Shown piece by piece: positions 301 through 60,476 of a stretch of DNA of 64,000 nucleotides. Source of the stretch: Microglena sp. YARC. Its lineage: Eukaryota; Chlorophyta; Chlorophyceae; Chlamydomonadales; Chlamydomonadaceae. Numbering within the stretch: position 1 is the first letter of the stretch; each line of letters opens with the position of its first letter. The stretch spans positions 59,000,195-59,064,194 of the forward strand of contig CM039462.1 in assembly GCA_022414725.1 (NCBI GenBank), read 5' to 3'. A program made the position numbers and the translations under genes. A model generated the notes under the pieces. It was not told the DNA's origin. It worked only from the letters and a program-made list of their open reading frames with translations, and made no database searches.

Positions 301-370
301 TGGTTGCACTTGCCTGGCATGCAAGCGGCAAGCGGCACTTGCCTGGCGGTATCTGCAAGCTTTACAGAAT

Positions 371-1430: not shown

Positions 1431-1636
1431 TTTCATGCCTCATAATCAAATATTTCTGCTACATCTGGAATTATTGGGCACACGCAGCGATATTTTCGCT
1501 TGAGCAAACTGAAAACATTGCTGAAAAGTTTGAGGAGAGTGGATAAATACTTGCTCTACGGTGGCAAAAAAGAAACGTGTCCTGCCTAACACAAGATACA
1601 GCTGCTGTCAAGTTTCACAATGGCCCTGAACTCAAG

Positions 1637-2656: not shown

Positions 2657-2794
2657 GTTCGATGAACATGTGTGTACAAGCGCAGAGGATGGTATAAATA
2701 AATACTGAGTTGGGATAAACCTATAAACCCTTGGTTGCACTTGCCTGGCATGCAAGCGGCACTTGCCTGGCGGTATCTGCAAGCGGTACAGAAT

Positions 2795-2960
2795 GGGTGT
2801 TCCTGCCTCCCGGCGATTTTTTTGAATTTTCCAATCAGAAGTTAGAGCCGTACGAACGACTCACTCACTCGCCAACCAGAGATTTAGCTCTCCGCGGAAT
2901 TGCGATTCCGGCCAAACCAGTCTCCGAAACCAGTCAAAATCCATCCGGGAGGCAGGAACA
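2795..2960. mobile_element. MITE of the GTTCCTGCCTCCCGG family, copy 2
   Basis: This is the same element as 371-532 at the equivalent place in the next duplicated ankyrin unit. It was therefore probably copied along with the segment and not inserted independently. The ends are GTGTTCCTGCCTCCCGGCG and the complement of ATCCGGGAGGCAGGAACA. Confidence 0.7.
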
Positions 2961-3328
2961 AATGTACTGGTGCAAATGTCTTTCTTTCTTACATTAAGGT
3001 ATTCAAGTTTCATCAAGTTTTGTAACCGATCTTGTCAATACAACAGATATTGTCTTCAGGAGATTGACACAAAACATTCAAGGACTGTAAAGACATAGAA
3101 GTTAGTAACATCTTCAAAGTAGCCTGAAAAGTCAAAGTGCTGGCTCACATCGTGCGCATCAATAATCATTTTTAAAGAGTTCCTGCTTCATAATCAAATA
3201 TTTATGCTACATCTGGAATAATTGGGCACACGCAGCGATATTTTCGCTTGAGCAAACTGAACACATTGCTGGAAAGTTTGAGGAGAGTGGATAAATACTT
3301 GCTCTATGGTGGCAATAAAGAAACGTGT

Positions 3329-17696: not shown

Positions 17697-18340
17697 TTCC
17701 CATTGGCTGAACACAGAAAGAATAGGGTGGTGGATAGGCACACATCCCCGGTCAATGAAGACACTGTCAAATGTGTGGGTTCCAGAAAACCTGAGATGAA
17801 ATGCATATGTTTGATGTGCCTGTTATAATGTATTCGCCTCCTGCTACCGTAGATAGCTGTTTACAGATCTTTGATAGGCATGTCCATGGAGGATACCAAC
17901 TTAACTCGTAATTGGAATGTGGAATTCTGCGAATTCCACAATTCAGAACTTTATGATGGAAATGGCACTAAAGTCGTTTTTGAGGCAACCTAGCCGAACT
18001 ATCTTTCTTACTTTGTGAAGAGCAAGACAGGAAGCCTGGACTGCTAGTGCACCGTAATTTAATCATCCCTTTTTCTTCTCTTGTGAATCTCATTTGTTAG
18101 CTTCTTACCTCCGCCACTGGTAATGTGTTAGATCTGGGTCGGCTCTAGTAGGGGTTTTAATACCTACGACCACCTAAAACGGTGGTTGGGAGTTGGTTTG
18201 TTATGTCCTCGACACCCCTGATGTTAATGGGGTTTTTGCTTTGTGGGTGCTTTTCTTTTGTTGAAAGCACAGAAGTCTCATCCACACTCGCGGTTCAGTT
18301 AGAACTTTAACCAGTTAATGTAATGTAATGTAATTGGTAA
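17697..18340 (+). mobile_element. LINE 3' end, copy 2 (indel-rich)
   Basis: Homologous along its length to 797-1430 (CCCATTGGCTGAACACAGAAAG to the TGTAATGTAATGTAAT tail), but with many scattered one-base insertions and deletions that destroy the reading frame. Substitutions are much rarer than indels. This resembles uncorrected long-read sequence more than neutral decay. Confidence 0.75.
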
Positions 18341-18618
18341 AGGCGCCAGAGCTGAATTCTCGCGTATGCCGTGCTGCTTTTAGAACAGCCCATCTCGTCC
18401 GCTTGCTTCTAACCTGGCTGAAATAGGCAGCTACGGCATCTGCCTTGACATAGCAACAAAACAACTGCTCTTGAAACACAAACGTGTGGAGGTGAGATTC
18501 AGCAGGTCTCCTGCCGTTGCGACCTCAAAGTCAACTGCGAGGTTGAACCAAGTTGACTCATTTGCTTTCCGAAAATAAGTAAACCTAATAGTGGTATAGA
18601 GGAATTTTTGCATGTAAA

Positions 18619-18665
18619 GGGCGTTCCTGCCTTCCCCGATTTTTTTTAAATTTCTAATCAGGATT
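18619..18665. mobile_element. MITE left end running into the assembly gap
   Basis: GGGCGTTCCTGCCTTCCCCG followed by a T-run and AAATTTC matches the left terminus of the MITE family. The rest is hidden by the N run. Confidence 0.55.
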
Positions 18666-19665
18666 NNNNNNNNNNNNNNNNNNNNNNNNNNNNNNNNNNN
18701 NNNNNNNNNNNNNNNNNNNNNNNNNNNNNNNNNNNNNNNNNNNNNNNNNNNNNNNNNNNNNNNNNNNNNNNNNNNNNNNNNNNNNNNNNNNNNNNNNNNN
18801 NNNNNNNNNNNNNNNNNNNNNNNNNNNNNNNNNNNNNNNNNNNNNNNNNNNNNNNNNNNNNNNNNNNNNNNNNNNNNNNNNNNNNNNNNNNNNNNNNNNN
18901 NNNNNNNNNNNNNNNNNNNNNNNNNNNNNNNNNNNNNNNNNNNNNNNNNNNNNNNNNNNNNNNNNNNNNNNNNNNNNNNNNNNNNNNNNNNNNNNNNNNN
19001 NNNNNNNNNNNNNNNNNNNNNNNNNNNNNNNNNNNNNNNNNNNNNNNNNNNNNNNNNNNNNNNNNNNNNNNNNNNNNNNNNNNNNNNNNNNNNNNNNNNN
19101 NNNNNNNNNNNNNNNNNNNNNNNNNNNNNNNNNNNNNNNNNNNNNNNNNNNNNNNNNNNNNNNNNNNNNNNNNNNNNNNNNNNNNNNNNNNNNNNNNNNN
19201 NNNNNNNNNNNNNNNNNNNNNNNNNNNNNNNNNNNNNNNNNNNNNNNNNNNNNNNNNNNNNNNNNNNNNNNNNNNNNNNNNNNNNNNNNNNNNNNNNNNN
19301 NNNNNNNNNNNNNNNNNNNNNNNNNNNNNNNNNNNNNNNNNNNNNNNNNNNNNNNNNNNNNNNNNNNNNNNNNNNNNNNNNNNNNNNNNNNNNNNNNNNN
19401 NNNNNNNNNNNNNNNNNNNNNNNNNNNNNNNNNNNNNNNNNNNNNNNNNNNNNNNNNNNNNNNNNNNNNNNNNNNNNNNNNNNNNNNNNNNNNNNNNNNN
19501 NNNNNNNNNNNNNNNNNNNNNNNNNNNNNNNNNNNNNNNNNNNNNNNNNNNNNNNNNNNNNNNNNNNNNNNNNNNNNNNNNNNNNNNNNNNNNNNNNNNN
19601 NNNNNNNNNNNNNNNNNNNNNNNNNNNNNNNNNNNNNNNNNNNNNNNNNNNNNNNNNNNNNNNNN
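18666..19665. other. Assembly gap (exactly 1000 N)
   Basis: A run of exactly 1000 N is a scaffolding placeholder, so the real distance is unknown. The open frames that cross it are artefacts. Confidence 0.99.
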
Positions 19666-19692
19666 AACAGCACGCACTCGGGCAATAGCCCC

Positions 19693-21500
19693 ATGTCTAT
19701 ACGCTTGCAAGATACCATAGGCCAGGCAAAGTGGCCTTTGCGCTTGCTGCGTTGCAAGTATACCAGCCAGGCAAATGTGCCGTTGTCGTTGCAGATACCG
19801 CCAGGCAGAGTGCCCTTACAGCTTAACGCTTGCAGGATAGCCGCCAGGCAAACACGTAACACACAACGCGGAGTATACAGGGTTTATCACCCAACTCATT
19901 GTTTATTTAATACCCATCTGTGCGATGGCCATGCATGTACACATATTGTTCATCAACACTCGCATATCAGCACACGCGATCATCGGTATTCACCTAAACG
20001 TTTCCGCCATGACAGTCTTGAATCGTATTGCCCTATTTCGTTCAACCCCAAGATTGTATCAGTGTGTAAAACTCCTGCACAAAAGAAGTTTCTGGATGGC
20101 CCCTTACTGGACTGATCCAACCACCACAGCGAGTTGGAAGAGATGATGGCGAAAGGGGGCGCAGCCGCTACTACCCAAGAAGTAAGCTTTGTTGTCCAAT
20201 CCTCTTGTACAAGGGGCACTACTAATTGAGAGCGAACCACAAATGAAAACAAGCTTCTCTTATTGGCTGCCAATAGAGGGCATAGAACGCCCAGATGTCT
20301 GCACACCGCTGCTCTAACGCTAGGATTCCACTGGGCCGGTAGCCGGGACTTGAGTGATGATGGAGCCGCTTGGGCGAACTGCTATGACACGCACAGCCCT
20401 GGCCTGGCCCGCTGATTGTGGCTGGCTGCAAGCGGAGGTCCACCGCAGATGCCTGAACCAAGCTCTTCATCGGATCCAGAGGTGGCTGGAAATTGGAGTT
20501 ATAGCCCGTGCGAACAATCTACGCAAAGCTGGGCATTGGGTGGCAGGCCGCTGCAAAGGAAGGTCAACGCAGAATGTCTGCAAGCCTGGCTCAATTAGCG
20601 CATACTAAGAGGTGCTGCGATGAGTTCAAGGCCGGGCGAACTCTAAATAAACAGCTGGGCCTTGCGGTGCTCGCCACAGGAAGTCACGCAGATTCTGCAA
20701 GATGCTCCATACAGGATCCACACGGTTGGCCTGCCTTGAGTTTCAGGCCCCGGAGCGAACTCTGCGACCAAGGCCCTTGAGGGTGGCTAGCAAATGAAGG
20801 CTCCCAGCAGCAATGTCTGCAAACCATCGCCTCATGTCCAGAGGTTGGCTGGGCTTGAGTCTCAGGCAGGGCGAACTCTAGAGACACGCAGGGCTTGGGG
20901 GCGGCTGTCCAAGGCAGGTCACGCCGACTGGTCTGGCACGCTTTTTGATGGATCCAGAGGTGGCTTGGAATTGAGTTCAGGGCCGGCAAACCGCTAGACG
21001 ACAGCTTGGCCTTGCGTGAGGCCTGCCAACGGCAAGGTCACGCAGATGTTCTGCAAGCATGCTGATGGATCCAGATGTGGCTGGACTTGAGTTCAGGGCC
21101 GGGGAACTCTACGCACAGCTTGACCTTGGCGTGAGGCTGCAAAGAAGGTCAACGCAGATGTCTGCAAGCTGCTGATGGATCCAGATGTGGCTGGAATTGA
21201 TTCAGGGCCCGGGCGACTCTAGCATAGCTTTGGCCTTGCGTGAGGTAGCTGCAAAGGGTATAGTCACGTCGATTGTCTGCAAGCTGCTGATGGATCCCAG
21301 ATGTGGCTTGGATATTGGAGTTCAGGGCCCGGCGAACTCTACGCACAGCTTGCGCCTTGCGTGAGCTGCAAAGGAAGGTCACGCAGATGTCTGCAAGCTG
21401 CTGATGGAATCCAGATGTGGCTGGCCCGCCGAGTACAAGGCCTTGTGAAATCTTGACAGCGCTGGTCTTTGCCACCGTAGAGCAAGATTTTATCCACTCT
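19693..21500 (+). pseudogene. F-box/ankyrin-repeat gene, copy D, inverted and heavily frameshifted
   Basis: On the plus strand, 19985-20150 matches the F-box-like block (LNRIALF, NPKI..VCKTL). From about 20250 to 21480 the 111-bp ankyrin unit recurs (GGATCCAGATGTGGCTGG, CACGCAGATGTCTGCAAGC) about ten times, with an indel every 20-60 bases. The downstream flank (CACCGTAGAGCAAG..TTATCCACTCT, 21470-21600) matches the 3' flank of copies B and C. It therefore belongs to the same family as the 1-5.1 kb tandem copies but in inverse orientation. No usable frame remains. Confidence 0.7.
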
Positions 21501-32439: not shown

Positions 32440-32792
32440 ATGGGCACTCATTCTGAACATAATGGAGGGTCGTTTACTTCTGCAACTGATTCTGCTGATG
32501 CCCCATGAAAAAGGGGGCAGTCCATGCTGTCCAACAGGCGGTACAGACAGATCGAAGAAAATTCAAGAGATCCTCATCGGAGACAGCAAAGAAGAAAACG
32601 ACTGGGTCCTCTTATCCAGGCTCCTCACAGAATTCAGGGAAATTATGCAGTTTGATCCTGAGGGACCTACGTATGGAGCAAGGGACAAGGCAAAAACAGT
32701 GCGAATACCACAGAAACAGAAATATTGCCATCAAAGATCTTGCAACAATGGTTCGTTCAAAGCTTAAAGACGAGTCACATGATGTTTATTAA
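32440..32792 (+). pseudogene. Small ORF upstream of the D5-like gene, frameshifted
   Basis: ATG 32440 begins MGTHSEHNGGSFTSATDSAD and meets a stop at 32506. One base over, the frame continues as KKGAVHAVQQAVQTDRRKF and runs to 32792, ending in AIKDLATMVRSKLKDES. The break lies at an A-run (ATGAAAAAGG). It is a short basic protein with no recognised family. The stop lies 10 bp before the D5-like ATG. Confidence 0.35.
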
Positions 32793-32801
32793 ACACTCTA
32801 T

Positions 32802-35800
32802 ATGTCATCCCTCGATGCTCTTCTGTTGGCGGCACATGTCAATAACTTCCCTGCCCACACAGAGGCAACCCACGGTGCCATGGGGGACCCCATGTTCGGT
32901 TCGTTCGCGATCCCTGATGGTGGACCTCATGCACAGGCGTTCCGAGAGGCCTACGTGCACGCGCTCAGGGATGAGTCGACCCATGTCTATCGTCGAGGCC
33001 CACACAGACACCTCGCCCGTCATCGTTGATCTGGACATGCGACAGACGACCCCAGAGCGCATCTACACACAGAAGCACATCGAGAATTTCATGGACGCGC
33101 TCGTGGCGGCCACCAAGTACTTTGTCGACCCAGCAACACATGGACGTCGTGATCCTCGAGAAGCCAAATCCAAGACTCGACAAGAAACACCTAGGGTGTA
33201 CAAAGATGGTCTACACGTGTTCATGCCAAATGTCATCACACACCCAGAGATCCAACTCGCCATTAGAGAGCACTTCGTCAACGATGTGACCGAACACATG
33301 GCGTTCTCGAGCACCATTTGCATTCCTGGACTGGCCGAAATGGATCCCGGGAAGATATATGACGAAAGCGTGATCAAACGGGGCGCAGGTGGTTCTTGTA
33401 CGGATCGAAGAAACCGGATGAGGCCCACCCGTGGAAAGTCACTGCCTGTACCAATTCGATATTGCCGCAGGCTCGTTCGCGGAAACGTGACGTACAGCAA
33501 ATGGATCTCGATACACTCGTGCAGAATCTGAGCATCCGTGTGCATCCGAAGGGGGGCACAGCCATACACCAAACACGGCCAGGAGGAAATGGTGATCCGT
33601 GGTGACGACAACTTGTCGAGCCTAAGAAGACTTTCGACTCGCATCATGGAATGGATGTGGAATCCCTCTACAATCTCGTGGACATACTCGATGCACATAG
33701 AGCCAGAGGATACGATTCATGGCTGAAGATCGGGATGGCGTTAAAGAACACAGTGGAAACGGGCACCGACACTCAGCGCCTCGAGATCTGGAAGGCTCTT
33801 GCAAAAAAATGCCCCTCAAAGTTCTCTGACACCAATCACGAAAGGGTGTGGTCCAATCTTAAGCCGCAAAAGATCACTCTAGGGACCCTCTGCTTCCTTG
33901 CCAAGGAGGATGACCCGATGGGGTACGCTGAATGGATCCGACAATGGGACACCAACGACAACAAACTGGGTGTGAAACTCGACAAGGATCGCATCATCAA
34001 GGACCTGAAGGTAAAGCTAATCAACTTGCACATTGATAACATGATATTATTGGATGTCGTACACGATAGCATCGAGTTCAATATGGAAAACGGAGCGAAA
34101 GGAGCCATCCATAAGAACCAATACATGGTGGAGGTCGATGACAAATATTATGGATCGCTGATCGACAAGTTCCCGATCCACGAAGACCCGGGGTTCATGA
34201 AGAACGTGCCTAGTGACAAAGGACCCTACGAGCTGCAGGCCATTGATGGCAAAACAATTAGCAGTGACATTGTGAAGAGCACCGACGTGCAAATCGCATT
34301 AATGAATATGGGAAGTGAAAGCCAATATGTAAATGTGCAATCCATCAAGTGCAACGCATGCAAGATCCGAGACAAGCAGGTCATCAACACAATCCATAAC
34401 ATGATATTCAAGGCTCAAGATTCCCACGCGAAGAACATGTATGGCATCACGCAGAACATCTTCCTGGTCAACAACACCATCAACATCCACATAGGGGGGG
34501 GAGATGTTGACTCGTTGTCGTCGTCCTCAATCACTGAGGATGTGCTGGCGGAGAAGTTCATGGAGGCCTCACCCGAATTCTTCAGCCGAATCAAGTTTGT
34601 GCCAGAAATCAAGAAGAAGGAATGTGTCGGCGACATGTATTACTGCGATCCTGCTACCAATCGCTGGTCAAACTGTTCGAACATGAGGATCAGCAAATAA
34701 ATAAAAATAGCATTCACATCCACGTTCCAGGTTGATAATAAGAACAAGACGAATGAGAAGCTTCAGTGGTTTGTCGACACGGTTAGGGGACGTTCTGCGT
34801 TCCTTCAATCCGTTGCATCTCTCGTCCTTGACAAGACATTTGCCGATAACCTCGATATCAACCCGGATCTCTTTGCAGTCAACAACGGCGTTTTCGACAG
34901 CTCGTCGAGGGACACAGTAGTGTTCCGAAAAGTCGAGATGACCGACAACATTAGTAGGTGCGCAAAGTGGGATTACCAGGGAGAGGACAACAACCACCTC
35001 AAGCGATGCAGGGATGAACTCGATGATTTCTTGCGGAAGGTAATGCCTGTTGACGATGAGCGTGACGTCGTGCTTGCCTTCTTTGCGGGGCTCCTATCAG
35101 GTCGACGCAAGGAGAAGAAATTCCTAGCCTTCACCGATAAGACATCCGGGGACAACGGCAAGAGCACTCTCGTGGCCCTTATGGGTAACTTTTTGGGAGT
35201 ACGGGAGCAGCAATGGCACAAAGTTTTTGACAAAGGGGTCGTTTGCAAGGGGACGTGATGACCATGACGCGGGTCTCAAGCCAATGAAGGGCGTGAGGCT
35301 ACTGGTGGCCGAAGAAATGAAACCCAACATCGCGGTTGGACGAGGCGTTGATCAAGCGCAGTTGCGGGGGGGGAAGGTGTGCGTGTTTGCGGGGCGCTCA
35401 TGTGGCACCGGGAACTCTTTCGACTTCATGTGGCAGGCTGGTGTAGTAATGATCTTCAACGAAGGCGATTGTCCCAAGTTCGACGGAGGAGACAACGCAT
35501 TCGTCAAGAGAATGGTTGTTGTCCCTATGCGCTCAAATTTCTTGATACACCCCGACCCACAGCGCGAGCACGAGTTTGAGCGCCGCGACGACCTAGCCGA
35601 CATCCTACCAACCTGGAGGTCTGCGCTGGCGCAGCTGCTCATCGAGCACTTTCGTCGACCAGGGAGCTCCAGCATCTTCGACAACCTACCGGTCTCGACG
35701 ACCGAGTGGAAGTCTGGTATTGCGGACAGCGCCAACCCCCTGACCGAGTGGCTAGAGGAGGTGGTTGAGGTGACGGGGTCGTCTTCGGACGCAGTGTGGA

Positions 35801-35934
35801 TCGGGGACCTCAAGATCCGTTGGAAAGAGTCCCACTATGGACACGAGGCATCCTTCAGCACCAAGTTGGTCAAGGCGTTCTTTTCGGGCAAACAGGGAAC
35901 AGAGTGGAAAGAGACTGCAAGAATGGAGAACTAA
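32802..35934 (+). pseudogene. D5-like primase-helicase, copy 1 (NCLDV type), several frame breaks
   Basis: In order, over about 1040 codons: an archaeo-eukaryotic primase-like part (SFAIPDG, VIVDLDMRQ, DGLHVFMPNV, then after a shift MYGSKKPDEAHPWKVT); a PriCT-2-like block at 33651 (ARGYDSWLKIGMAL...KCPSKF); a D5_N-like segment (VGDMYYCDPATNRW); then a superfamily-3 helicase with Walker A SGDNGKST at 35141-35168, KGVRLLVAEEMKP and the arginine-finger-type strand VKRMVVVPMRSNF. NCLDVs use this fusion protein to prime and unwind replicating DNA. Breaks occur near 32965, 33390, 33610, 34700 (unrelated 45-bp patch and stop) and 35200. The region is homologous to copies 2 and 3. It cannot be functional as read. 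Confidence 0.8.
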
Positions 35935-35984
35935 AAGTCAAAAAGGAGTGATTAAGGGGTGTAAAATTATTGTTTATTAAACTC

Positions 35985-36120
35985 GACGGAATACTAAAAT
36001 GAAATCGCTTTCTGGAGTATACGGTACTACACCTTACCGATAACAGGTTTTCCTACAGGGGAATACCCATAATGTGGCTTGAGACGCTCACTAAACCCAC
36101 ATTGGTCAACTGATACTAAA
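35985..36120 (-). mobile_element. Composite relic of the Fanzor/mariner transposon behind D5 copy 1
   Basis: CGACGGAATACTAAAATGAA at 35984 is the transposon terminus without its first bases. GATAACAGGTTTTCCTACAG at 36039 through CAACTGATACTAAA (36115) is about 96% identical to 59938-60018, which encodes the first catalytic Asp region (SVDECGF) of the transposase. Here the Asp-Glu-Cys codons are altered (TTGGTCAAC where the intact copy has TTCGTCAAC). Terminal and internal parts are directly joined, so the interior has been deleted. Confidence 0.7.
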
Positions 36121-36360
36121 CCTGTTAATCGATGATGATCCACATCGTTTGGGTTCATGCTTTCGCATATTTAGCATACAGTACGATGTTGTTGCTTGTC
36201 CCCATTCTCACACATGCCGCGAAAGCTTTCGCATCATTTGCGCCTGCCTCGTCCATTCGTCCTCGAATGAAGTGTAAACAACAAAGCTGACCCTTCTTTA
36301 TTGCCAGCACACTTCACCGACACTACTTCTTTATTGTTCACGTTATTGCGTCAGAGGACG
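36121..36360. other. No gene recognised between D5 copies 1 and 2
   Basis: About 240 bp of unassigned sequence with TTCTTTATTG twice. It could hold the promoter of the 36360 fragment. Confidence 0.3.
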
Positions 36361-38276
36361 CGATGCTCATTCCAGACGTAATAAAAGACAATTGGTACAA
36401 GGGAGACTACGGTCTGGGCCAGGTCGCGCACTTCTTGTTGAAAGGGTCCGTGAAGAAGACTGGGGCTGGCCGCGGGGTCTACTACATATTCGAGGAGGAC
36501 ACGTGCCAATGGGTCAAGGTGGATGAAGGGAGGGTGAAGAGCGTGGCGGCCTAGGCCATGGAGGTGGCGTTGAGGGATGTGGACGCCTGGATATCAACCT
36601 CTATGATGGTAGCGGACCTGGATTTGAAGAGAAGGGAAGTTTTTAAGGCTGATCCGGTACACAAAGGTCTCCATCGCGGAGTGACAAACGTGATGGCATT
36701 TTGCAGGCTCTATGCTGAGGGACGAGACGTTCGAGCAAGGCTTGAACATCATCATGGTGGGTGGGGGAAATGACACGGACGATGATGATGACTCGTTGTC
36801 GTCGTCCTCAATCACTGTGGATGTGCTGGCGGAGAAGTTCATGGAGGCCTCACCCGAATTCTTCAGCCAATCAAGTTTGTGCCAGACTTAAAGAAGGAGG
36901 AATGTGTCGGCGACATGTATTACTGCAACCCTGCTACCAATCGATGGTCAAACTGCAGCAACATGAGGATAATTAACGTAATCGCAAACGAGTTCAAATC
37001 CGAATTCTCTGCTGAGAAGAAGAACAAGACGAATGAGAAGCTTCGGTGGTTTGTCGTCACGGTTCGGGGACGTTCTGCGTTCCTTCAATCCGTTGCATCT
37101 CTCGTCCTTGACGAGACATTCGCCGATAACCTCGATATCAACCCGGATCTCTTTGCAGTCAACAACGGCGTCTTCGACAGCTCGTCGAGGGACACAGTAG
37201 TGTTCCGAAAAGTCGAGATGACCGACAACATTAGTAGGTGCGCAAAGTGGGATTACCAGGGAGAGGACAACAACCACCTCAAGCTATGCAGGGATGAACT
37301 CGATGACTTCTTGCGGAAAGTCATGCCGGTTGACGAGGAGCGTGACGTCGTGCTCGCATATTTTGCGGGACTTCTGTCCGGCCGCCGCAAGGAGAAGAAA
37401 TTCCTAGCCTTCACCGATAAGACATCTGGTGACAACGGGAAGAGTACCGTTTTGGCCCTTTTCGTAGCTTTTTTGACGAGTACGGGAGCTTTGATGAAAA
37501 CCAAGCTCCAGACAACGGGTCGTTTGCAAGGAGTCGTGATGACCACGACGCGGGACTCAAGTCAATGAAGGGCGTGAGGCTCCTGGTGTCAGAAGAAATG
37601 AAACCCGGTATCTCACTGGACGATGCGTTATCAAACGCATTGAGGGGGAGAGGGTGTGCGTATCGAAGGGCGCTCATGTGGCACGGGGAACTCGTCCGAC
37701 TTCATGTGGCAGGCTGGCGTTTGTATTGTCTTCAACGAAGGCGATTGTCCCAAGTTCGACGGAGGAGACAGCGTCTTTGTCAAGCGGATGGTCGTGGTAC
37801 CCATGCGATCAAACTTTGTGCTACACCCTGAGCGCGAGCACGAGTTTGAGCGCCGCGACAACCTAGCCGACATCCTACCAACATGGAGGTCTGCGCTGGC
37901 GCAGCTGCTCATCGAGCACTTTCGTCGACCGGGGCGCTCCAGCATCTTCGACAACCTGCCGGTCTTGATGACCGAGTGGAAGTCTGGTATTGCGGACAGC
38001 GCCAACCCCCTGACCGAGTGGCTAGAGGAGGTGGTTGAGGTGACGGGGGCGTCTTCGGACGCGGTGTGGATCGGGGACCTCAAGATCCGTTGGAAAGAGT
38101 CCCACTATGGACACGAGGCATCCTTCAGCACCAAGTTGGTCAAGGCGTTCTTTTCGGGCAAACAGGGAACAGAGTGGAAAGAGACATCGCAGGTGGCAAT
38201 CTCTACGGAGGAAGAGAAGAAGAAGGTTGTGAAACGAGGGGTCATTCGAGGCATCAAGTTAGTGGGGGCCAGCTAA
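36360..38276 (+). pseudogene. D5-like primase-helicase, copy 2 (chimeric 5' part, intact C-terminus)
   Basis: It begins with a D5_N-like segment absent from copy 1 (NWYKGDYGLGQVAHFLL, GVYYIFEEDTCQW) and then FRSMLRDETFEQGLNII-type sequence in a shifted frame. At about 36785 it becomes homologous to copy 1 (SLSSSSIT.DVLAEKFMEAS). Then come MYYCNPATNRWSN, a frame without the stop seen in copy 1 at 34700, Walker A SGDNGKST (about 37430), a break at 37450-37560, and the complete C-terminus to 38276 (VKRGVIRGIKLVGAS). Copies 1 and 2 are about 90% identical in the shared helicase part. The 5' part seems to come from a second D5 lineage, joined at a GGTGGG/GGGGGG stretch. The region has three or more frame breaks. 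Confidence 0.75.
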
Positions 38277-48475: not shown

Positions 48476-48869
48476 TGTCAGCATGAATTGCGGTGCTCTC
48501 AAGCGTTTTATGACTTGGTGACTACTTATGTACTCCCTTAGAACTATCGGCCCTGATAGCTTCCCATAGTGATAGCTTCCCGTAGAACTGAGTCATCCTT
48601 TAGTGACTCAGTGTCAGCTCCCTATTGACTGCCTGTCTCTCTGTGTCTTATCGGTCTCTCCCTGACATGTCCTGTGTTAAACGGTGTCAGGGTGACAAGT
48701 TCCGGGCTTAGGGTCTATTCAGGTTACAGGCATCCACTTCGCCCACCGCTGGTGTCCTTTAGTGTACGTCCTTGCTTGTAACGTTATTCTCGTCTCTGTG
48801 TATAGATTGGCGCGTCTGTCTCCGCTGCATACATCTCTGTCCACTCTTAGAAGTGCTTAATAGCTGATA
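48476..48869 (+). repeat. 5' LTR of the Ty1/copia element
   Basis: TGTCAGCATGAATTGCGGTG to CTTAATAGCTGATA. The sequence right after it (GGTTCTGGGCTTCATC) should contain the primer-binding site; I could not assign the tRNA. Confidence 0.95.
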
Positions 48870-48906
48870 GGTTCTGGGCTTCATCTCGATCTACCACTGC
48901 TTTATA

Positions 48907-51105
48907 ATGCAACTTCCGCGTGGGCCTCCTGCCGGCTTCGAAAAGCTAACCCCACAGAATGGTTTGTCTTGGTCGCGCGGTATGGAGAGCGTCATTGTAT
49001 CCAATGGCTGCGACCGCATTCTTTCGTTCAAGACTCGTGTTCCCACTGATTGGCTTGATGATTGCGCGCCAGCGGCCTCTGCTGCCTTAGATGAGTCTCC
49101 TTCCGCCATCATGGAAGACATCCCCCCCTACCAAACCTCCATTTCTCTCCCTCCTTCTCCTCTTGTCCAACGCCTCCTTCCTGAGGTAGAGGATATTCTG
49201 ATGCGTCTATGCTGCGTCTCGACTCAGATCATCAAATACAAGTCTTCTCCTCCGCCTCCTGATGCCCGTTTTGAGTATGACAATGCTGATCTGGCTCGCC
49301 ATAAGCATGAAGATGGCTACTACACTGAGGATGACGATGACAACGAAGAGGAAGACCTACAGAGTGCGCGGAGTGGTGACTTCGGTGGAGTCACACCTTC
49401 CACTGCCACTCGTGTTTTTGAGTCTCCGGTGTTTGAGCACCAGTCGGCTCCTCCTCCTCCTCCTCCTCCTCCTCCTGTCTACAAGCCTCCGACTGCTCCT
49501 CCGCATCCACCTGCGGTACCTGAGTTGGCTATGCCAACTTTGCTGAGAAGCTCGTCACTTGGTCCTTTGATTCCTCCCCTCCCCTTTGTTCGCAACCCTT
49601 CTGAGCGAGCTCTGGCTGGCTACCACACGCGGTCTCGTGAAACTGCTGTTGCTGCCTCGAGTGTCCACAGCGATGCTGCTGGCCCCTCCCTGAATCCACC
49701 TCCACCTCCACCGGTGGAGCAGCCTCCTGCCCCTTCTCCTTTTCCTCCCCCCCTGCCCTACTACCCGAATCGCTCGCTGGGATGCTTATCCTGGGAGCAC
49801 CTGCTTGATGGCTCCACACCTTCGCGCATGGATGTGCGGAGTTGCCGCCAAATTCGCCAGGCGCAGAAAGCTGGTGACTCCTTGGACCGCACTTTGTACG
49901 GTAGGATGGATCAGGCTGCCACTCGGGCTAATCTAGATACGAAGGGGCGGGCTAGGCGAGTGATGGTGTTCTCTGAGTTGGGTCATGCATGCAGTGCTTA
50001 TCTGGGGCCTGTGCATGCAGGGATTGACTACCCCCCTCCTGGTGGTGCTACCTTTGGTGGATTGGGAGTTCGAAATGCAAATCTACGCAAGTACCAGTTT
50101 GCCAAAGTTCCTCTCAGCTTTGTACCTCCTAGGCCAGATTTTGAGCTACTCGTAAATGTTGCGAGTTCTTTGGATGAGATTGAGAACCTTGATGACCAGC
50201 GTGCATATGATGCTGGCATCGCTGCCGAGTACTTTCTGTCGGTTCGCGCTATGTATGATGCCACGCCGTTTTCGCCTGTTGCCTCACCACCTGCCTCTCC
50301 TAGTCAGACTCGTGTAGATCCTGCACTGTTAGGATTTAGTACCCTGCCCCTTGCACGCCAGAAGTTCATGTGTCTCACCATGATGCTCGCGCACATGACG
50401 GAACCGATGGTACAGGTGTATCAGGATTTTGCTACACCTCGCGATATCTTACTGCATATCAAGAGGCAGCATTCTGATGCCCTTGCTGCTTGGGTTCCCC
50501 TCATGCTTGTTGAGCTTCGTAGTGTGACCATGAACAACTCTGAACCCGTGGATGTGTTCTTTCGCAGGGTGCGGCAGTTGTGCACTGATCTTCGCAGTGC
50601 GGGATACCCGCAGCCGCAGCGTCACGCGATGCACACTATAATCAATGGCATCACTCACCCTCGATTCGATTCGCTGCGCCTCCAGTTTGGCTTTGAGTTG
50701 TACCAGAACAAGACCGTAGACTACTGGTCTTGTCTTGATGCTTATAGATCGTTAGATTTCTTAAATGTGTCTCTCCCCAGGTCTAATCCAAGGCATCCTG
50801 GCTGGTCCCGCGACCCTCCCCAGATCCCTGCTAATGCTGCTTTCCAGCGGGGCAAGGGATCTGGTTCTCAGAGTTCCGGGGGCACCAAGAGGCGCTTGGA
50901 TTGCACTTGGGGACCCTGTCGTTCGAAAACGAGCCACTCGGAAGACCGCTGCTTTACAAAGTATCCGGAACTCAGAAAGGCCAAGGGACGTGCACCTGGT
51001 TCTGAACCGGTGCCCGTAGCTTTGGCCCTTCCAGGGTCGCTTACACGTAAGCAGCTGTCGTCCTTGCAGGCTCAGATCGATGGGTACGCCATTTCAAAGA
51101 ACTAG
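48907..51105 (+). CDS. Gag-like protein of the Ty1/copia element
   Basis: An intact frame of 732 residues from ATG 48907, 38 bp after the LTR. Residues 150-300 are a Pro-rich low-complexity region ([20 protein letters not shown]). The region about 480-630 has the capsid-like helical pattern (FMCLTMMLAHMTEPMVQVYQ, ELRSVTMNNSEPVDVFFRRV) of copia gag. Near 680 a Cys/His cluster (CTWGPCRSKTSHSEDRCF) resembles a zinc knuckle of atypical spacing. The C-terminus ends QIDGYAISKN. It packages element RNA. A TAG stop separates it from pol. The length is larger than most copia gags because of the Pro-rich insert. Confidence 0.8.
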   Translation: MQLPRGPPAGFEKLTPQNGLSWSRGMESVIVSNGCDRILSFKTRVPTDWLDDCAPAASAALDESPSAIMEDIPPYQTSISLPPSPLVQRLLPEVEDILMRLCCVSTQIIKYKSSPPPPDARFEYDNADLARHKHEDGYYTEDDDDNEEEDLQSARSGDFGGVTPSTATRVFESPVFEHQSAPPPPPPPPPVYKPPTAPPHPPAVPELAMPTLLRSSSLGPLIPPLPFVRNPSERALAGYHTRSRETAVAASSVHSDAAGPSLNPPPPPPVEQPPAPSPFPPPLPYYPNRSLGCLSWEHLLDGSTPSRMDVRSCRQIRQAQKAGDSLDRTLYGRMDQAATRANLDTKGRARRVMVFSELGHACSAYLGPVHAGIDYPPPGGATFGGLGVRNANLRKYQFAKVPLSFVPPRPDFELLVNVASSLDEIENLDDQRAYDAGIAAEYFLSVRAMYDATPFSPVASPPASPSQTRVDPALLGFSTLPLARQKFMCLTMMLAHMTEPMVQVYQDFATPRDILLHIKRQHSDALAAWVPLMLVELRSVTMNNSEPVDVFFRRVRQLCTDLRSAGYPQPQRHAMHTIINGITHPRFDSLRLQFGFELYQNKTVDYWSCLDAYRSLDFLNVSLPRSNPRHPGWSRDPPQIPANAAFQRGKGSGSQSSGGTKRRLDCTWGPCRSKTSHSEDRCFTKYPELRKAKGRAPGSEPVPVALALPGSLTRKQLSSLQAQIDGYAISKN

Positions 51106-51111
51106 GAGGTA

Positions 51112-51160
51112 AGCTCTGTCCTATTTTCTTGCACGACTAAGTTCTCAAACATTTGCAGCC
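51112..51160 (+). other. Intron-like segment between gag and pol
   Basis: GAG|GTAAGCTC at 51108 and CATTTGCAG at 51160 look like splice donor and acceptor around about 50 bases. Splicing would not remove the gag TAG but would bring pol closer. Copia elements of insects use splicing to control the gag:pol ratio. Here that role is speculation. Confidence 0.3.
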
Positions 51161-54100
51161 CAAGTCTTTCTGAAGGTATCTGGCATGTGGACTCGGGAGC
51201 TGGGATGTCAATCACAGGTGATAGGTCGTTGTTCACTGTGTTTGAATCCTCTGCTGTTGGGCCTGCAGTTCGATTTGCTGATGGGGTGATTCAACGGTCA
51301 GAGGGTATGGGGTCCATTGTGTTATGTAGTGATTAGTTACCAACATCAATCACCTTAACCAATGTTCTATACATACCCCACTGTCCAGTAAATCTCCTGT
51401 CCGTAAATGCTGTAGCTCGTTCCCTCCACTGCAAGATTGCTTTTGATAGTATTAGTTGTACTGCCACTCAGGGCTCTTCTGTGCTCTGGTCCTTTCCTGC
51501 TTCCAGTGATGGTGTGTATAAGTTTGCATGTAGGCCTTGTCACACCTCCAGTCGTTGTTTGAGGGTTGCTGAATATTATCCAGCTTTTGCACTTGATGTT
51601 GATGAGGACGGTGGAGTTATTATCCCTACCACTCCTGGTTGTGGCATAGGCGACTGGGTCATCCCGGTTATGATGCCTTGCACAACCTTGTCAAGCGTGG
51701 TATGGTTACGAACTTACCCCTCAGCCTTCATCAAGTACAAAAGATGGGTAAGATCCCATGTGATGCTTGTCAACAGGCTAAGGGAAAGCGTCTCCCTTTT
51801 CCTAAAGAAAGCATGACTGAGGTCCTTGCACCCCTCCAACGCCTTCACTTGGATATCATGGGACCGGTTCATATTAGGGGTCTTCGTGGGAGTTTTATAT
51901 CTTGTGCCTTGTAGACCAATTCTCTGGCTATGCTGAGGTATTGTGCTTGAGGACCAAGGATGAAGCTCCCTTAGCAGTCCAGACTATCATCCTCAGATGG
52001 TCAAATCAGCTGCAGGGGTGTGCCTTTAAGTGTCTGAGATCTGACAGGGCTAAAGAGTTTATAGTTAAATGGTTCGAGGATTGGTTAGAATCGGTTGGGG
52101 CAGTACATGAGTTGTCTTTGGCATACACTGCACAGCAGAATGCAACTGTGGAAAGGTATAATGGGGTCCTTCAGAATATAGCTAGGAGTATCCACTTGGA
52201 GTCTAAGCTTACTAAGTCCTTTTGGCCCTATGCCTTCCTGGCTGCTTGTTACCTTAGAAACCGTCTGCCTAACCAGGGACGCAAGACACCCGTTGAGTTG
52301 TTTTATGGGGTGAAACCTGATGTGTCGTTATTACGTGTGTTTGGATGCCCCTGCTATGTTACTCTAGTCAATGGGAAGAAACGTAATAAGCTAGACGAAA
52401 GGGCGTTATCTGGTAGACTGGTTGGGTATTCTCTGGTGAGTAAGGGTTATTTTGTTTGGGTTCCTAAGTTGCGCCAGGTAGTAGAGAGTCGTGATGTACT
52501 CTTCTATGAGCAGTTTGATCATAACTGCATTCCTGGGCTAACTCCCTATGATGGGTCGCCATATGTCTCTAGCATCCCTGCCGCCATCAACGGACACATG
52601 CCTGAGGTTGCGGTTGATTCCCTAGACCCTTTGTCTTCCCCAATTGTTGACCACTGTCTTGGCCATAGGATGACTCTGCGACCTAGGTCGGGGGCCAGTG
52701 GTACTGTTTTGCGTGAGAACACACTGGGCGGGGCGAGTTTCTGCGGCTCCTACGGACAAAATCTTAGCCGAATCTCAGGGGGTCGCCAGGCCCTCCTCTG
52801 CGTCACATTCCGTCGGTGAAGTCGTTGGATTTACACCAACTCAGACCATAGTGGATCCTTTGTTAGATCCATTGCCTACTAGTCATCATACTCCCATCAT
52901 CACTGATAGCTCGATGGAGTTGGTGAACGCTTCACCTCCTGCCGTCTCTGATAGATTACTCAGGAGTCCGGGTGATGATGTAGCCGTTGCAGATGATGCA
53001 AGTGATGATCTTTGAACCGTGGTCAGGCTCCGATACTGCGTATGGCTGGGGTGTTCCGGTCGACCCAGGCTTCGTTGATTTAGAGGCAAAGAAGGCCGGC
53101 CCTGTTCAACCAGGCAGTAGTTCTGCACTGGGGGCTTTACTAATGGTTACTTCTGATACTGCCGATACCCCCGCTGCCCATGTACAAGTAAACTGCTTGT
53201 ACGTGGGAGCATCAGTTGCATCCACCACTGAACTGACCTACAAAGGTGCCATGTTGCATACCAACCCTGACAGGGATCAATGGCTTCTTGCCATGAAGGA
53301 TGAGATGGCTTCCCTTCATGCCCATGGTACATGGGTTCTCACTCCACATCCTCGTAAGCAGAAGATCCTGTCTGGCAGGTGGTTATTTGTGAAGAAGATT
53401 GGTGTTGATGGTACTATACGCTTCAAGGCACGTTTTGTGGTCCGTGGTTTTCTGCAGCGTCCTGGGCTGGATTTTCATGATGTATATGCCCCTGTCTCCT
53501 CCAAAGCAGGTCTTAGGGTGCTCCTGGCTGCCATCACTCATAGGAAGATGTTTGTTCGGCAGCTAGACATCAAGACTGCATTCCTAAATGCCAAGCTGGA
53601 GCCTGGTCTGGACCTGTACTGCCACCAGCCTGAGGGCTTTAGGCACCTTGGTCCTAACGGTGTTCCACTTGTCTGCAAACTGATCAAGTCCCTTTATGGA
53701 TTGAAGCAGGCACCCAGAGCTTGGAGTAGGGATGTCAAGCGGGTTCTGGTTGCTCATGGCTTTACTATGTGCAAGCAGAACCTGCTCTGTACTTTAGGAA
53801 GGATTCTGATGGTGGGTGGAGCTATGTCCTAACCTATGTTGATGACTTTATCTGTGCTTTTAGTGAGCTGGATAGGTATGTGTTGCTGATCCAGGCAATG
53901 GAAGCAGCTGGCTGGGAGGTCAAAGAGATGGGTGTTCCAATTCAGTTCCTCTCTTTGGACATGGATGTTACTCTTGACTCTGAAGGCAGGTGTGTTCAGA
54001 TCAATCTCTCTCAGCACACCTACATTGTTGATCTGGTGGAGCAGTTTGGTCTTACTGCTGCTGCCCCACCCAAGTTTGCTGCTCCCATGTCCAAATCCAC

Positions 54101-54806
54101 TGTTTCTGACGCCCCTGGAGAGCCCCTGCCGTCTAATAGCCAGTACCTCTCTCTTGTAGGTGCTTTGCTATACCTGGCCACTTGCACCAGGCCTGATATT
54201 TCCTTTGCTGTTAGCTATTTATCCAGGTTCTCTGCTCACCCTACAGTCCCTCTCTGGGGGGCTGCCAAACGGTTACTCTTGTATTTGAGAACACATTCTC
54301 ACCTGGGTCTCACTTACACCCACAGCCCTGATTTCACTTTTACTGTCTTTAGTGACTCATCTTATGCTGATGATGGGTCTGACAGGAGATCTCAGACTGG
54401 CTTTGCAGTTCTAGCTGGTGGGTGCATTGTTAACTGGATGAGCAAGCGACAGCCTACTGTTGCTATTAGCTCTAGTGAGGCTGAGTATCAGGCCCTGTCC
54501 CAGGCTGCCAGTGAGGTCCAATGGTTGAAGAAATTGAGGGTGGATCTGGGTCTGCCTTGTGCTTTGGTTACAATTCAGGGTGACAACTTAGGTTCCCTGA
54601 GTTGGGCCACTGACTGGCAGCTTCTGCCTCGCAGCAAGCACATTGATGTTATTCATCACTACATCAAGGAGCTGGTGGAGGATGGCCAACTGGCTGTTGC
54701 CTATGTTAACACTGTGGATAACTGTGCTGACCCCTTCACCAAGCCCCTTGATCCTGCTGTGTTCTGGCGGTTTGTCCGTATGCTTGGAATGACCGCTACT
54801 TCTTAG
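51161..54806 (+). pseudogene. Pol polyprotein of the Ty1/copia element (frame breaks)
   Basis: Domains in order. Aspartic protease: WHVDSGAGMSITGDRSLF, 51180. Integrase: HHCC HRRLGHPGYDALHN...CDACQQAKGK about 51640, then LDIMGP, QFSGYAEVL, GAVHELSLAYTAQQN and the GYSLVSKGYFVW end, to about 52530. Reverse transcriptase from 53280: FKARFVVRGFLQ, VRQLDIKTAFLNAKLE, SLYGLKQAPRAW, and YVDDF after 53832. RNase H: FSDSSYADDGSDRRSQTGF and AISSSEAEYQAL, ending at 54806. Breaks occur at about 51334 (TAG), 51640, 51905, 52815-52990 and 53775. The integrase-before-RT order is diagnostic for Ty1/copia. Despite almost identical LTRs this copy cannot make a complete Pol as read. Confidence 0.9.
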
Positions 54807-55129
54807 GGTCATTTTTTAGTTTTTGGTTACATACGTTTCTTGTTTTTTGGTTATCATTGTATGGCATTAGGTTCCTATTCTCGGATCGGGTTTTCTATAC
54901 CGTTGTTACCCGTCATTGATATTCGGTTATCCTCTTTTCTCCCTTGGCACTCTTTGGTATTTTGCCTTGGTCCATTCCTTCATTTACACCCTTTGGGTTA
55001 CATCTGAAGTTCTCTCGTTTTTTCGGAGTTCTTTAATTTTTTTTTTTTTAATCTGTTACATATAGTTCTATGTCCCCAGTGCCATAGGTGGAGTAGTAGT
55101 ATTGTATGTCACCTGTGTCATAGGTGGAG
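54807..55129. other. 3' untranslated part of the Ty1/copia element
   Basis: T-rich, non-coding. A short direct repeat (TCATAGGTGGAGT, 55080 and 55117) ends in GGTGGAG immediately before the 3' LTR and may include the polypurine tract. Confidence 0.6.
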
Positions 55130-55523
55130 TGTCAGCATGAATTGCGGTGCTCTCAAGCGTTTTATGACTCGGTGACTACTTATGTACTCCCTTAGAACTA
55201 TCGGCCCTGATAGCTTCCCATAGTGATAGCTTCCCGTAGAACTGAGTCATCCTTTAGTGACTCAGTGTCAGCTTCATATTGACTGCCTGTCTCTCTGTGT
55301 CTTATCGGTCTCTCCCTGACATGTCCTGTGTTAAACGGTGTCAGGGTGACAAGTTCCGGGCTTAGGGTCTATTCAGGTTACAGGCATCCACTTCGCCCAC
55401 CGCTGGTGTCCTTTAGTGTACGTCCTTGCTTGTAACGTTATTCTCGTCTCTGTGTATAGATTGGCGCGTCTGTCTCCGCTGCATACATCTCTGTCCACTC
55501 TTAGAAGTGCTTAATAGCTGATA
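55130..55523 (+). repeat. 3' LTR of the Ty1/copia element
   Basis: 394 bp, matching 48476-48869 except at about four positions (for example GTCAGCTTCATATT versus GTCAGCTCCCTATT). Confidence 0.95.
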
Positions 55524-56918: not shown

Positions 56919-57003
56919 CTAGAGCGGAACATCGAGTTTGTCAAGATACTTTGCATCTAATGCGGGTGTCACGTCGTCGTAGTCTTCCAGTTTATCGTTT
57001 ATA
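56919..57003 (-). pseudogene. C-terminal tail of a minus-strand gene cut by the Fanzor transposon
   Basis: On the minus strand NDKLEDYDDVTPALDAKYLD continues to KLDVPL and a stop at 56919-56921. It is followed by a polyadenylation signal. Upstream it meets the transposon border (TA at 57002-57003). On the other side of the transposon (60473 on) the same frame meets a stop after a few codons, so the rest of the gene is not adjacent any more. Confidence 0.35.
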
Positions 57004-57028
57004 CAGTCAACGGAATACTTAAATGAAA
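57004..57028. repeat. Left terminal inverted repeat of the Fanzor transposon
   Basis: CAGTCAACGGAATACTTAAA and then TGAAA, preceded by TA. It pairs with 60447-60471. Confidence 0.85.
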
Positions 57029-57119
57029 CCGCTTCGTGTACGGCACACCTTGCGGTGTAACCTAATGTTGTCGCGACCACCGGAGGGGGACCGAGTGGTG
57101 TCTACAACAATACGAGTTT
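57004..57119 (-). ncRNA. Candidate guide (omega/fanzor) RNA scaffold at the Fanzor 3' end
   Basis: In TnpB and Fanzor systems the guide RNA is transcribed from the 3' end of the nuclease gene through the transposon end, and the adjacent flank supplies the guide. Here the 116 bp from the stop codon to the terminus hold a small stem-loop (ACACC-TTGC-GGTGT, 57045-57058). It is kept in relics at 38640 (ACACC-TTAC-GGTGT) and, less perfectly, at 14430. The predicted guide would be the minus-strand sequence beyond 57004. No expression evidence is available; this is inference from family knowledge. Confidence 0.3.
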
Positions 57120-59496
57120 TTATTCATCAACAACAACAGAGCTGCTGTGGGCAAATGGAAGAGGTCGTCCTAGACCCATCAATTCCATGCAGTGCAGCCT
57201 TGCGATTGTGAGAGCAGAAGAGCGATCCCGGTCCGAGTAAATGCATGTTTCTGGAGAGAATCGCAGTCCTCGTACCTCTTGGTACCGCTCGATCGATTTT
57301 TGAGAATCGACAAGGGAAGTGGCGAAGCCACCCCTCCTGTGCTTCTCTTGTGCGCCTTTACGTTTATTGTACAACCTTACCCCTAAGTGGTCGCAATCAG
57401 CGACCTTTGGCATCGTTTTCGATTTCGTGTGACCAAAACGTTCACCACCCAACCTAAGCTTCACGTCTGCTGAACAAACGCTTGGGATCTTGTAAACACG
57501 TTCTTTTTCTTTACCCGTCTCCCACGACATAAGAGTCGTTTTGAACTCATCTGTCACAGAAACGTCCTCTTTGAAAATTCTTTTACACGATGCAAACATG
57601 GCCCCAGTGGGAACTGCAACTTCTCCCGGTCCAGTAGGCTTCAGTTTCGTGATGGCAGATCCGTAGGCCACGCAAACCTTCATATCAGGAAGTTCTTTCA
57701 TCATGCACCGCTTGATACCCGCCCAGAAAGAGTCTTTGACCTTTCGTTTTCCGATGTAACGCTGCAAGTTGTCACGGGATTCTCGGCGTCGCAAAGCCAA
57801 TCTCCACCACTCGTCAGAAAAGTTAGCGTAATTTGACAAGTACACCGAGATCTTATCCGTCCTCGATGTACTCAAAGCTGCTCCATTTTCACGCAGAGAC
57901 TCCCACATAGGAATCATGTCAGAAAAACGCAGTTCCTTCTGCCTTGTCTGCTTCTTGATACCCGACTTGTGGTAAAATGCACCACGTGTCAGCGTCCATG
58001 TCTTATTTTTATCGTCTGCCAAATACGTTACCGTAGCGATGTTGCTCCGTCCTGGGTCCACACCAGGACGACGATACCCATATCGGGCAATATCGTTTTA
58101 AGTGAGCCGTCGTATTTTTCTGCGATCTTGATACCTTCTTCTTTACGAGGCTTCTTACAGGTCTTCTTCAGATCTGAGACAAGGACATGTACTGTCTTGC
58201 TGTACTGCATGCTCAAGGAGACTCCGTCAGTACAGATGCTGCTGTCGAAAACCCACCCATTCTTGACAGGTGGTTTTCTGAAGAATGAACCTGCGACTGT
58301 TTTTCGGGCGTTCACAAGCGTGTCATACAAACCCTTTGCATGTCTGTACACGTCAGTAGCCTTGATATCCTTAACATCATCATCGTACTGCTTCAGGACC
58401 GACTTGTATGCCTCCCATTCACCAGGACCACATGATTTTTTCTTCTTCTGTGCAGGCCTCTGGGGCAACATGAAGCTGTCGGGATTCTTTACATGTTCCC
58501 ACTTGGAAAGCTCAACGATGTTCTGGTCATTGGGGAACATGTGCCTGAACAGGTTCACGAGGGTCTTCAGGTCAAGGCGAACATGCACCCGTTGGACATT
58601 GAAGATGGGCATCAATCGGATACGACGTGCATCCATATCCTCCAACCGTGTCTGTATCCAATAATTAAACCGGACCATGGTCGGAAAGTCCATGTCTTTG
58701 CCATAGTTATCATAAACTCGACTTCCATCTGGAACACTCAGCATCTCCCAAACTTCATTGACGTACTCTTGAACAGACTCTGGCCATCCCTCCATGTTTT
58801 GGACTTCTTGCTGAATAGCCCGCATCACGTCGTATCCCCGAATGATCTTCGATGTGTCCAGCGTCTTCGGGGCATTTAATTTTTTAAGGTGGTGGAAGTG
58901 AGTCTGGTCAGACGTGGTATCAAAGGAACCCATGCGTTATTTGACACGACAGTGCTCAATGTGTGACCTGCATAGTTCAATACCTGATCGAAATAGATCG
59001 GATAAGACTTGATGTAGTCAGCGTCGTCATTACCAATTACATCGCCGATGGAGTCCTTCACAGCTTCGTACGATATCTTGTTTTCCTCATCAGGGAAGAT
59101 TCCGTCTACCCCGATACGGAGCTAATCCTTCCAGTAGGTATCTTTCATGTTGTACAGGTCTGGAATCTCCAGACCTTTCTCTAAGAGACTCGTGATGTGG
59201 AAAGTCAGCACCAGACTGGACCGCCGTAACATGCGGCTCACCACATTGACGAGCTGGTCCACATGCTCCCTAAACTTACCGAATTCTTCATCGTCAAGAC
59301 TCATTGCCTCCTTCAGGGCGCATTTCACGACACACATCTTTTCCACCGTCTTGTATTCTGGAGGGGGTCTGGCGATGAGACCATTGTCTTCGCATAAACG
59401 GACAAGATCGTCCTTGTTGGACTTCGACGAGTATGGTACTTCAGCCAATTTCAGTAGCTCCTTCAATTTCGCGACTGTCAGAGGTTTCGTCGCCAT
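57120..59496 (-). pseudogene. Fanzor (TnpB-like RuvC nuclease) with N-terminal SAP domain; one stop and two frameshifts
   Basis: From ATG 59496: residues 1-40 are a SAP-like domain (LTVAKLKELLKLAEVPYSSK, DLVRLCEDNGL). The frame stops at TAG 59122-59124 but continues in phase (LRIGVDGIFPDEENK, SIGDVIGNDDADYIKSYP) to about 58930. There it shifts to the 58028-58933 frame with a helical recognition-type region and a basic patch (KKKKSCGPGEWEAY). At about 58047 CTGGTGTGGACC lacks one G. Restoring it would give GVDPGR, the RuvC-I Asp motif. The last frame holds DPGRSNIATVTYL, VAYGSAITK and YSDRDRSSALTIA (RuvC-III). It is about 790 codons in all. Typical Fanzors cut DNA guided by RNA from the element's end. 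All three RuvC regions are present, but the gene is broken. Confidence 0.8.
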
Positions 59497-60426
59497 CTTT
59501 CATAATCAATACGTCACAGACCGCTTTATACACATAAGTGTTCCAAACGTGTTCAAAACAACCCATAATAATTTTATCAGTGAGGTTGCCGAATGCTAAG
59601 GAAATCATATCAGACACGTGCGTCTTTGTTTCATTCGGTATGTAGTTCAAACGACGAAAGTCTCTCTTCACCTTAGCGAATGATAGCTCAATAGCATTGA
59701 ATTCTGGACTGTAAGGAGGTGTGTAACAAATATTGACGGGGTGACTGAGGACCAATTTCTTATGGATACTGGCATTGTCCATTATTACTACTGAGTTATT
59801 GCACAAACTCAATGATTCAATAAATGCAACGAAGTCCGTCTTCTTCACAGATCCTTTCTTCACAACGAACTCTTTCCTACCATCTGAAAAAACTGCCATC
59901 AACAAACTTTGGTGTACCCACCCACCAGTAGTTTTAACGATAACAGGTTTTCCTACAGGGGAATACCCATAATGTGGCTTGAGACGCTCACTAAACCCAC
60001 ATTCGTCAACTGATACTAAAATTTCCCAGCATTGATTGTCTCCTTGTACCTACTACAAAATTCATTGACAAGTGGAACTAAGTCCCCTTTACACTGTCCA
60101 CGGAGTTTGCTCCTTTTTCTTGTAAAACCAATGAGTTTTATGAAACGATACACTGTTTTAGTTGATAATCGTACACTGTGAGTACTTTTGAAAAAAGCAA
60201 CAACGCCTCTTGCGGTTGTGCATTGAGTTGACAATAAAAACGATTTTAACAAATCCTTATTCGTCTCAAAAAGGTTGCTTACAAATTCACGTCGTTTTCG
60301 ATTTACACCAAAGCGTTTCCACCTCCACAGAGTAGAACGACTGATGTTCGTAAACACAGAAGTTTTTAACACACCCAAGTCAGCGACCATTCTTAACGCC
60401 AATTTTCTAACGGCGATGTCGTACAT
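59441..60426 (-). pseudogene. IS630/Tc1-mariner-type DDE transposase (one frameshift)
   Basis: From 60426: MYDIAVRKLALRMVADLGVL, then SRSTLWRWKRFGV, a helix-turn-helix, and STKTVYRFIKLIGFTRKR, a second one. At about 60018 one A is missing (GGGAAATTTTAG). The frame goes on as ILVSVDECGF (first Asp), VVIMDNASIHKK (second Asp) and YTPPYSPEFNAIELSFAKV (Glu, about 30 residues after the Asp). It ends DSREIEGATEIG at 59441, inside the start of the Fanzor frame. It would cut and paste the element at TA. It is about 327 codons, normal for the family. The overlap with Fanzor suggests one transcript for both. Confidence 0.85.
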
Positions 60427-60446
60427 TTATTTCCATCTGATATATG

Positions 60447-60471
60447 TTTCATTTTACTGTTCCGCCGACTG
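60447..60471. repeat. Right terminal inverted repeat of the Fanzor transposon
   Basis: Read inward on the minus strand: CAGTCGGCGGAACAGTAAAA and then TGAAA, followed outside by TA. Confidence 0.85.
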
Positions 60472-60476
60472 TAGAG

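Follow-up and report, generated by a model that had tools for sequence, protein, structure and literature searches.

In IS200/IS605 elements with TnpB, the target motif (TAM) lies beside the left end and the right flank serves as the guide, as is in part also stated in print. These elements use a HUH transposase without target duplication, in contrast to the DDE transposase and TA duplication of the element described here. Mariner-Fanzor composites have been known since 2013: Mariner elements carrying Fanzor1 are PGv-1, PUl-1 and PUl-4, and SPu-1 is described with TA duplications as well (Bao and Jurka 2013, PMC3627910, available text). According to the same text, the Fanzor1 motif comprises a C4 zinc finger between a [TS][TS] pair and an RD pair. 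Published systems take their guide from the sequence flanking the right end and have the TAM across the empty site from it; the TAM of SpuFz1 is CATA and thus ends in TA (Saito 2023, PMC10432273, available part). There, the biological role of Fanzors was given as unknown in 2023. The guide-RNA scaffold of Fanzor1 includes the inverted repeat and the target duplication, and a TDG motif in the WED domain is a Fanzor1 feature (PMC10711439, available part).

The element lies in a window of 64,000 nucleotides from Microglena sp. YARC, namely positions 59000195-59064194 of contig C1 in a genome of 568 Mb and 2390 contigs. It is best explained as a recently active DNA transposon of the Tc1/mariner type with a Fanzor1-type cargo, and in this explanation as a whole, which includes the mechanism proposed below, we place slightly more belief than doubt. 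Its features, in window positions, are the following.

57004..60471, minus strand: whole element, with both genes read from this strand; exactly these bounds occur in 28 of the 43 match rows from the genome
60446..60471, minus strand: left terminal inverted repeat (transposase side), by comparison of the ends
57004..57029, minus strand: right terminal inverted repeat (Fanzor 3' side), by comparison of the ends
60472..60474, minus strand: CTA before the left end, consisting of the TA duplication and the C conserved at left ends; predicted TAM, from genome counts
57002..57003, minus strand: TA duplication at the right end, read from the sequence
57004..57078, minus strand: right-end segment retained by miniature copies; proposed guide-RNA scaffold, a hairpin followed by a stem that includes the TA
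56982..57001, minus strand: flank, putative guide, its length taken from published systems
60016..60426, minus strand: N-terminal piece of the transposase (HTH); HTH_23 at 1.8e-4, below cut-off
about 59444..60049, minus strand: C-terminal piece of the transposase (DDE_3) in another frame, from profile match and open reading frames
59122..59496, minus strand: N-terminal piece of the Fanzor, ending at an in-frame stop, from open reading frames
58028..58933, minus strand: middle piece of the Fanzor with the TDG motif, from open reading frames and motif
57120..58061, minus strand: C-terminal piece of the Fanzor with the RuvC motifs, from open reading frames and motif
59386..59481, minus strand: HeH/LEM (SAP-like) helix-extension-helix motif, a match below cut-off with two helices in the model of P0016
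14377-14645, 17101-17164, 25260-25376, 36034-36120, 38299-38680 and 39505-39645: further fragments or miniature copies of the same transposon family

As the original prediction had it, the element has inverted ends (57002-57029 and 60446-60473) and a TA at both borders; including the TA, the ends comprise 28 nt and are imperfect, with 82% complementarity. A search of the genome with the element as query gave 43 match rows, 40 of 2911 candidates being scored. The proposed borders stand, since 28 rows cover query positions 1-3468 and two more 1-3467. With the window copy, full-length copies share 97-99% identity. Together with 39 further copies, retrieved with 500 bases on each side, the window copy gave a set of 40 sequences, selected by likeness to it. 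The ends were readable at the common border in 34 (left) and 33 (right) of the 40 sequences. A TA is present at 33 of 33 right and 32 of 34 left ends (T at position -2 in 34, A at -1 in 32), and two empty sites contain a single TA, which corresponds to the TA duplication of Tc1/mariner elements. Allowing at most one mismatch, the left end occurs 3409 times in the genome, against three occurrences of the reversed pattern. On contig C1 left ends are clustered between 0 and 14.8 Mb, with dense regions at 0-2 Mb and 6.4-8 Mb; none of 100 listed left ends lies between 1.98 and 6.42 Mb. Relatives of the element were not found in the collections of phage records and viral contigs that were searched.

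The transposase in the window consists of two pieces with one frame change between them. The predicted DDE domain was confirmed as DDE_3, with 5e-16 for the window piece and 1.9e-23 for an open copy, where it covers residues 137-265 and identifies an IS630/mariner-type enzyme. The catalytic triad was placed by motif at D141, D217 and E247. Like Tc1/mariner-IS630 elements in general, the element thus combines a DDE_3 domain with TA duplication; it differs from them in the C before the left TA only and, by our own placement, in that the second D is separated from the E by 29 residues, compared with 34 in Tc1.

The Fanzor gene is not a single frame of 790 codons, as had been proposed, since an in-frame stop and two frame changes divide it into three open pieces (57120-58061, 58028-58933 and 59122-59496). 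Its identification as a Fanzor was nevertheless right. The protein has a Fanzor1 fold, with WED, REC with insertions, and RuvC, and the three predicted RuvC motifs are present on the minus strand, in a piece that Pfam left unnamed. In an alignment of 50 proteins the RuvC-I motif DPG is strongly conserved (D481 in 49, P482 in 48, G483 in 50), as is the TDG motif of the WED domain (T423 in 50, D424 and G425 in 49 each). E651, taken as the alternative RuvC-II glutamate because it precedes the [TS][TS] pair, and not by superposition, is found in 48 of 50 proteins with two gaps, and D758 of the RuvC-III RD in 46, with three gaps and one other residue. Every protein scored for the [TS][TS] pair has it (48 of 48). 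Between this pair and RD, a CxxC is absent from 46 of 47 assessable relatives (three of the 50 are too short); only the outlier P0066 retains it. Consequently, we file the protein as a zinc-finger-less relative of Fanzor1 and not as a standard member. For the SAP domain of the original prediction, the best library match is the related HeH/LEM motif, which scores 22.4 bits in the window piece (E 9.8e-5) and 15.9 bits in an open copy, below the cut-off of 28.9 bits.

With PGv-1, PUl-1, PUl-4 and SPu-1 the element shares a Mariner-type transposase and/or inverted ends, TA duplications and an internal Fanzor1; it differs in lacking the zinc finger of their motif and in belonging to a far larger family, and the available text mentions only TA at their insertions, compared with a one-sided CTA here (PMC3627910). 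SpuFz1 of Spizellomyces (PMC10432273) resembles the present protein in its Fanzor1 fold and in a TA-ending TAM, which is predicted here, and differs from it in having a zinc finger. Between the ends of Spu-1 that study detected no transposase (PMC10432273, available part), whereas here the transposase lies inside the element.

Among the copies the CTA is one-sided. Read on the Fanzor strand, 33 of 34 copies have a C in front of the left TA; behind the right TA no base is favoured (11 T, 10 G, 6 A and 6 C, n = 33). Among exact ends in the whole genome, duplicated copies being counted separately, C adjoins the TA at 1955 of 2038 left ends versus 642 of 2660 right ends, leaving 83 and 2018 non-C ends, respectively (Fisher p prints as 0); in the window, C precedes 19.8% of all TA. 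On C1 up to 12.72 Mb, where the listing of exact ends is complete, 38 left-right units have C on the left in 35 cases and on the right in five. At position -4, G occurs in 279 of 1955 CTA left ends (14.3%) versus 288 of 1132 CTA in the window (25.4%), a weak indication of an extended motif. Of the 83 non-C left ends, 20 were inspected. Nine have one flank in common (seven near-identical, L059 and L061 similar), and further flanks are shared by L051 and L052 and by L062 and L064; hence there are fewer than 83 independent exceptions, and some of the 1955 C ends may be non-independent likewise. In the available literature that was searched, no paper was recognised as describing Mariner-Fanzor insertions with a motif that goes beyond TA on one side.

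Empty sites were sought for 27 junctions from the 40 copies, the others having no clean end or TA. Among matches crossing a junction, with the retrieved sequences as the source of relatives, five ungapped ones (L029, L031, L036, L032 and L012) were counted and two gapped ones (L023 and L041) left out. The C is already present in the uninterrupted relative in five of five comparisons and the full CTA in two: the relatives of L029 and L031 contain CTA once, and those of L036, L032 and L012 contain C followed by a diverged TA, these relatives being paralogues that may have diverged. Thus, the duplication comprises the TA, and the C already belonged to the target site. Five pairs of left ends on C1 without a right end have C at 10 of 10 ends, although three of them exceed 1.9 kb and are perhaps chance neighbours; the compact units L071/L088 and L075/L082 have TAG at the far end too. 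The C on both sides of two-left-end units points to the left end itself as the part that goes with CTA. L089 looks like two copies fused.

Twenty CTA left ends, hand-picked from the first 100 listed and not random, were read for miniature copies. Six come from miniature copies with one left and one right end, about 340-450 bp in length. In five of these the left end is reduced to 27-28 bp and the right end to 68-80 bp; the sixth, L083, retains about 263 bp and 190 bp, respectively. They may be compared with the 134 ghost loci of Spizellomyces, which have ends and guide RNA without the gene (PMC10432273, available part). The right segment can be folded into a hairpin and a stem including the TA. 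Its fold energies are not striking (z -0.7 to -1.7), and covariation is no better than in shuffled alignments (101 of 500), so that a right-end guide RNA, by analogy with known systems, stays a proposal. A search of Rfam gave one snoRNA match at chance level (E 0.83). By their right ends, the 40 copies (L009-L047 plus the window copy) fall into 15 of type A, 18 of type B and seven unassigned; what separates the types is five extra bases and the pairing adjoining the TA. In L068, L069, L071, L084 and L085 the left end passes after 19-28 bp into unrelated sequence, some of it host-like or repeat; these may be elements that share this left end and have captured DNA.

The following mechanism is proposed. 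RNA reading through the right end would provide a short scaffold, made of the hairpin and the stem of inverted repeat and TA, and the flanking sequence behind it would be the guide. With the TA counted in the scaffold, the empty site would consist of CTA and the guide sequence, hence a predicted Fanzor TAM of CTA. Such a site (CTA and right flank) could be cut after exit of the transposon, or on the other chromosome, and repair templated by an occupied copy would then bring the element back or produce a further copy of it. If the left end and the transposase are matched to the nuclease motif, nearly every insertion would receive CTA on the usable side. In favour of this explanation, the C is on the side on which published systems have their TAM, the TAM of SpuFz1 also has the TA ending, the right end is kept at greater length than the left in miniature copies, and the third-position bias in both genes reported below is consistent with it. 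Against it, C stands on both sides of two-left-end units, a pattern that would not be expected from guide-dependent removal of the other insertions; RNA structure and covariation are weak; and the zinc ribbon of active Fanzors is missing. The interpretation in the original prediction, a Fanzor1-type composite whose RNA-guided nuclease would help an IS630-like transposase persist, is partly supported.

The state of the copies bears on whether the family is alive. Contrary to expectation, the window copy is no good reference, because frame changes and an in-frame stop break both genes. Two among the 40 sequences do have both genes open. The 328-aa transposase is open in 15 sequences, the 792-aa Fanzor in six and neither in 21. 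In open copies the Fanzor starts inside the end of the transposase with an overlap of 56 nt; in L010 and L028 the overlapping frames are different ones. Many indels are single bases in short homopolymers, and assembly error may be behind some frame changes. A dead family, composed of decayed copies with none active now, would agree with the 21 sequences and with the many frame changes, some perhaps assembly errors; we consider it improbable in view of the two open copies, of a metagenome protein (P0016, 792 aa) with 99% identity, and of a distance of only 0.3-1.7% from the column majority in 37 of 40 copies (three with large indels were left out). This low divergence indicates that the present set of copies spread recently, and nothing follows from it for older ones. 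With sites treated as independent, substitutions shared by at least two copies fall on third codon positions in 37 of 61 cases for the Fanzor (p 1e-5) and 24 of 44 for the transposase (p 0.003); for singletons the numbers are 102 of 239 (p 0.002) and 42 of 106 (p 0.10). This suggests selection on both genes during the expansion of the family.

For the C itself, a wrongly drawn left border would make it part of the element. Its presence in 33 of 34 copies resembles an element base, and yet the empty sites contradict this (C in five of five ungapped comparisons), another base occurs at 83 of 2038 exact left ends, and TA is the only base pair common to both ends; C as an element base was rejected, and we give such a border hardly any credence. 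In a weightier alternative, which we still judge unlikely, the left-only CTA would reflect what the transposase prefers as a target when bound at the left end, and the Fanzor would be an unlinked passenger. The two-left-end units with C on both sides are in line with it, as are five two-right-end pairs with C at only three of 10 ends, which is expected if C follows the left end. To our knowledge, a one-sided preference of 96% is unusual for a mariner element, which speaks against this alternative, and the exact match with the TAM side, the selection on the Fanzor and the longer right end of miniature copies are all left unexplained by it. An end-dependent precedent is Sleeping Beauty, in which transposon ends can shape target preference, as described in the available part of PMC7987939 for aberrant non-TA sites. 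Co-adaptation of the left end and transposase with the nuclease motif is our preferred reading, because the C in two-left-end units points to the left end itself; it belongs to the explanation that, taken whole, we hold to be somewhat probable.

What merits a second look is the zinc-finger-less branch and the one-sided CTA over about two thousand ends. Put most pointedly, insertion and nuclease would be co-adapted in a eukaryotic cut-and-paste transposon: the left end would steer a mariner transposase to CTA, the TAM required by the internal, zinc-finger-less Fanzor, and almost all copies, guide-only miniatures included, would thereby be addressed and self-protecting; we offer this tentatively, with rather more doubt than belief. 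If true, it would be the counterpart of the IS605/TnpB logic in a DDE transposon and would record, across a whole genome, how Fanzors function in nature. In a single genome the transposase and the Fanzor occur alongside copies that are probably guide-only, naturally open copies and roughly two thousand insertion ends that can be scored, and the sharp prediction of CTA as TAM makes the role of the Fanzor testable by one assay.

Elsewhere in the window, the stretch 18001-20000 has a GC content of 23%, compared with mostly 45-54% in the rest, and contains an open frame of 402 aa (18654-19862, minus strand) without a Pfam match. Separate open frames at 32725-37568 (plus strand) encode primase-helicase pieces of the type of large DNA viruses (AEP_C962R 2.2e-16, PriCT_2 1.6e-15, D5_N 9e-4), which a virus may have left in the host chromosome long ago. 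A Copia-type retrotransposon at 48476-55429 (plus strand) is bounded by direct repeats with 99% identity (48476-48775 and 55130-55429) and contains integrase and reverse transcriptase pieces (SH3_retrovirus 1.3e-24, RVT_2 1.2e-34).
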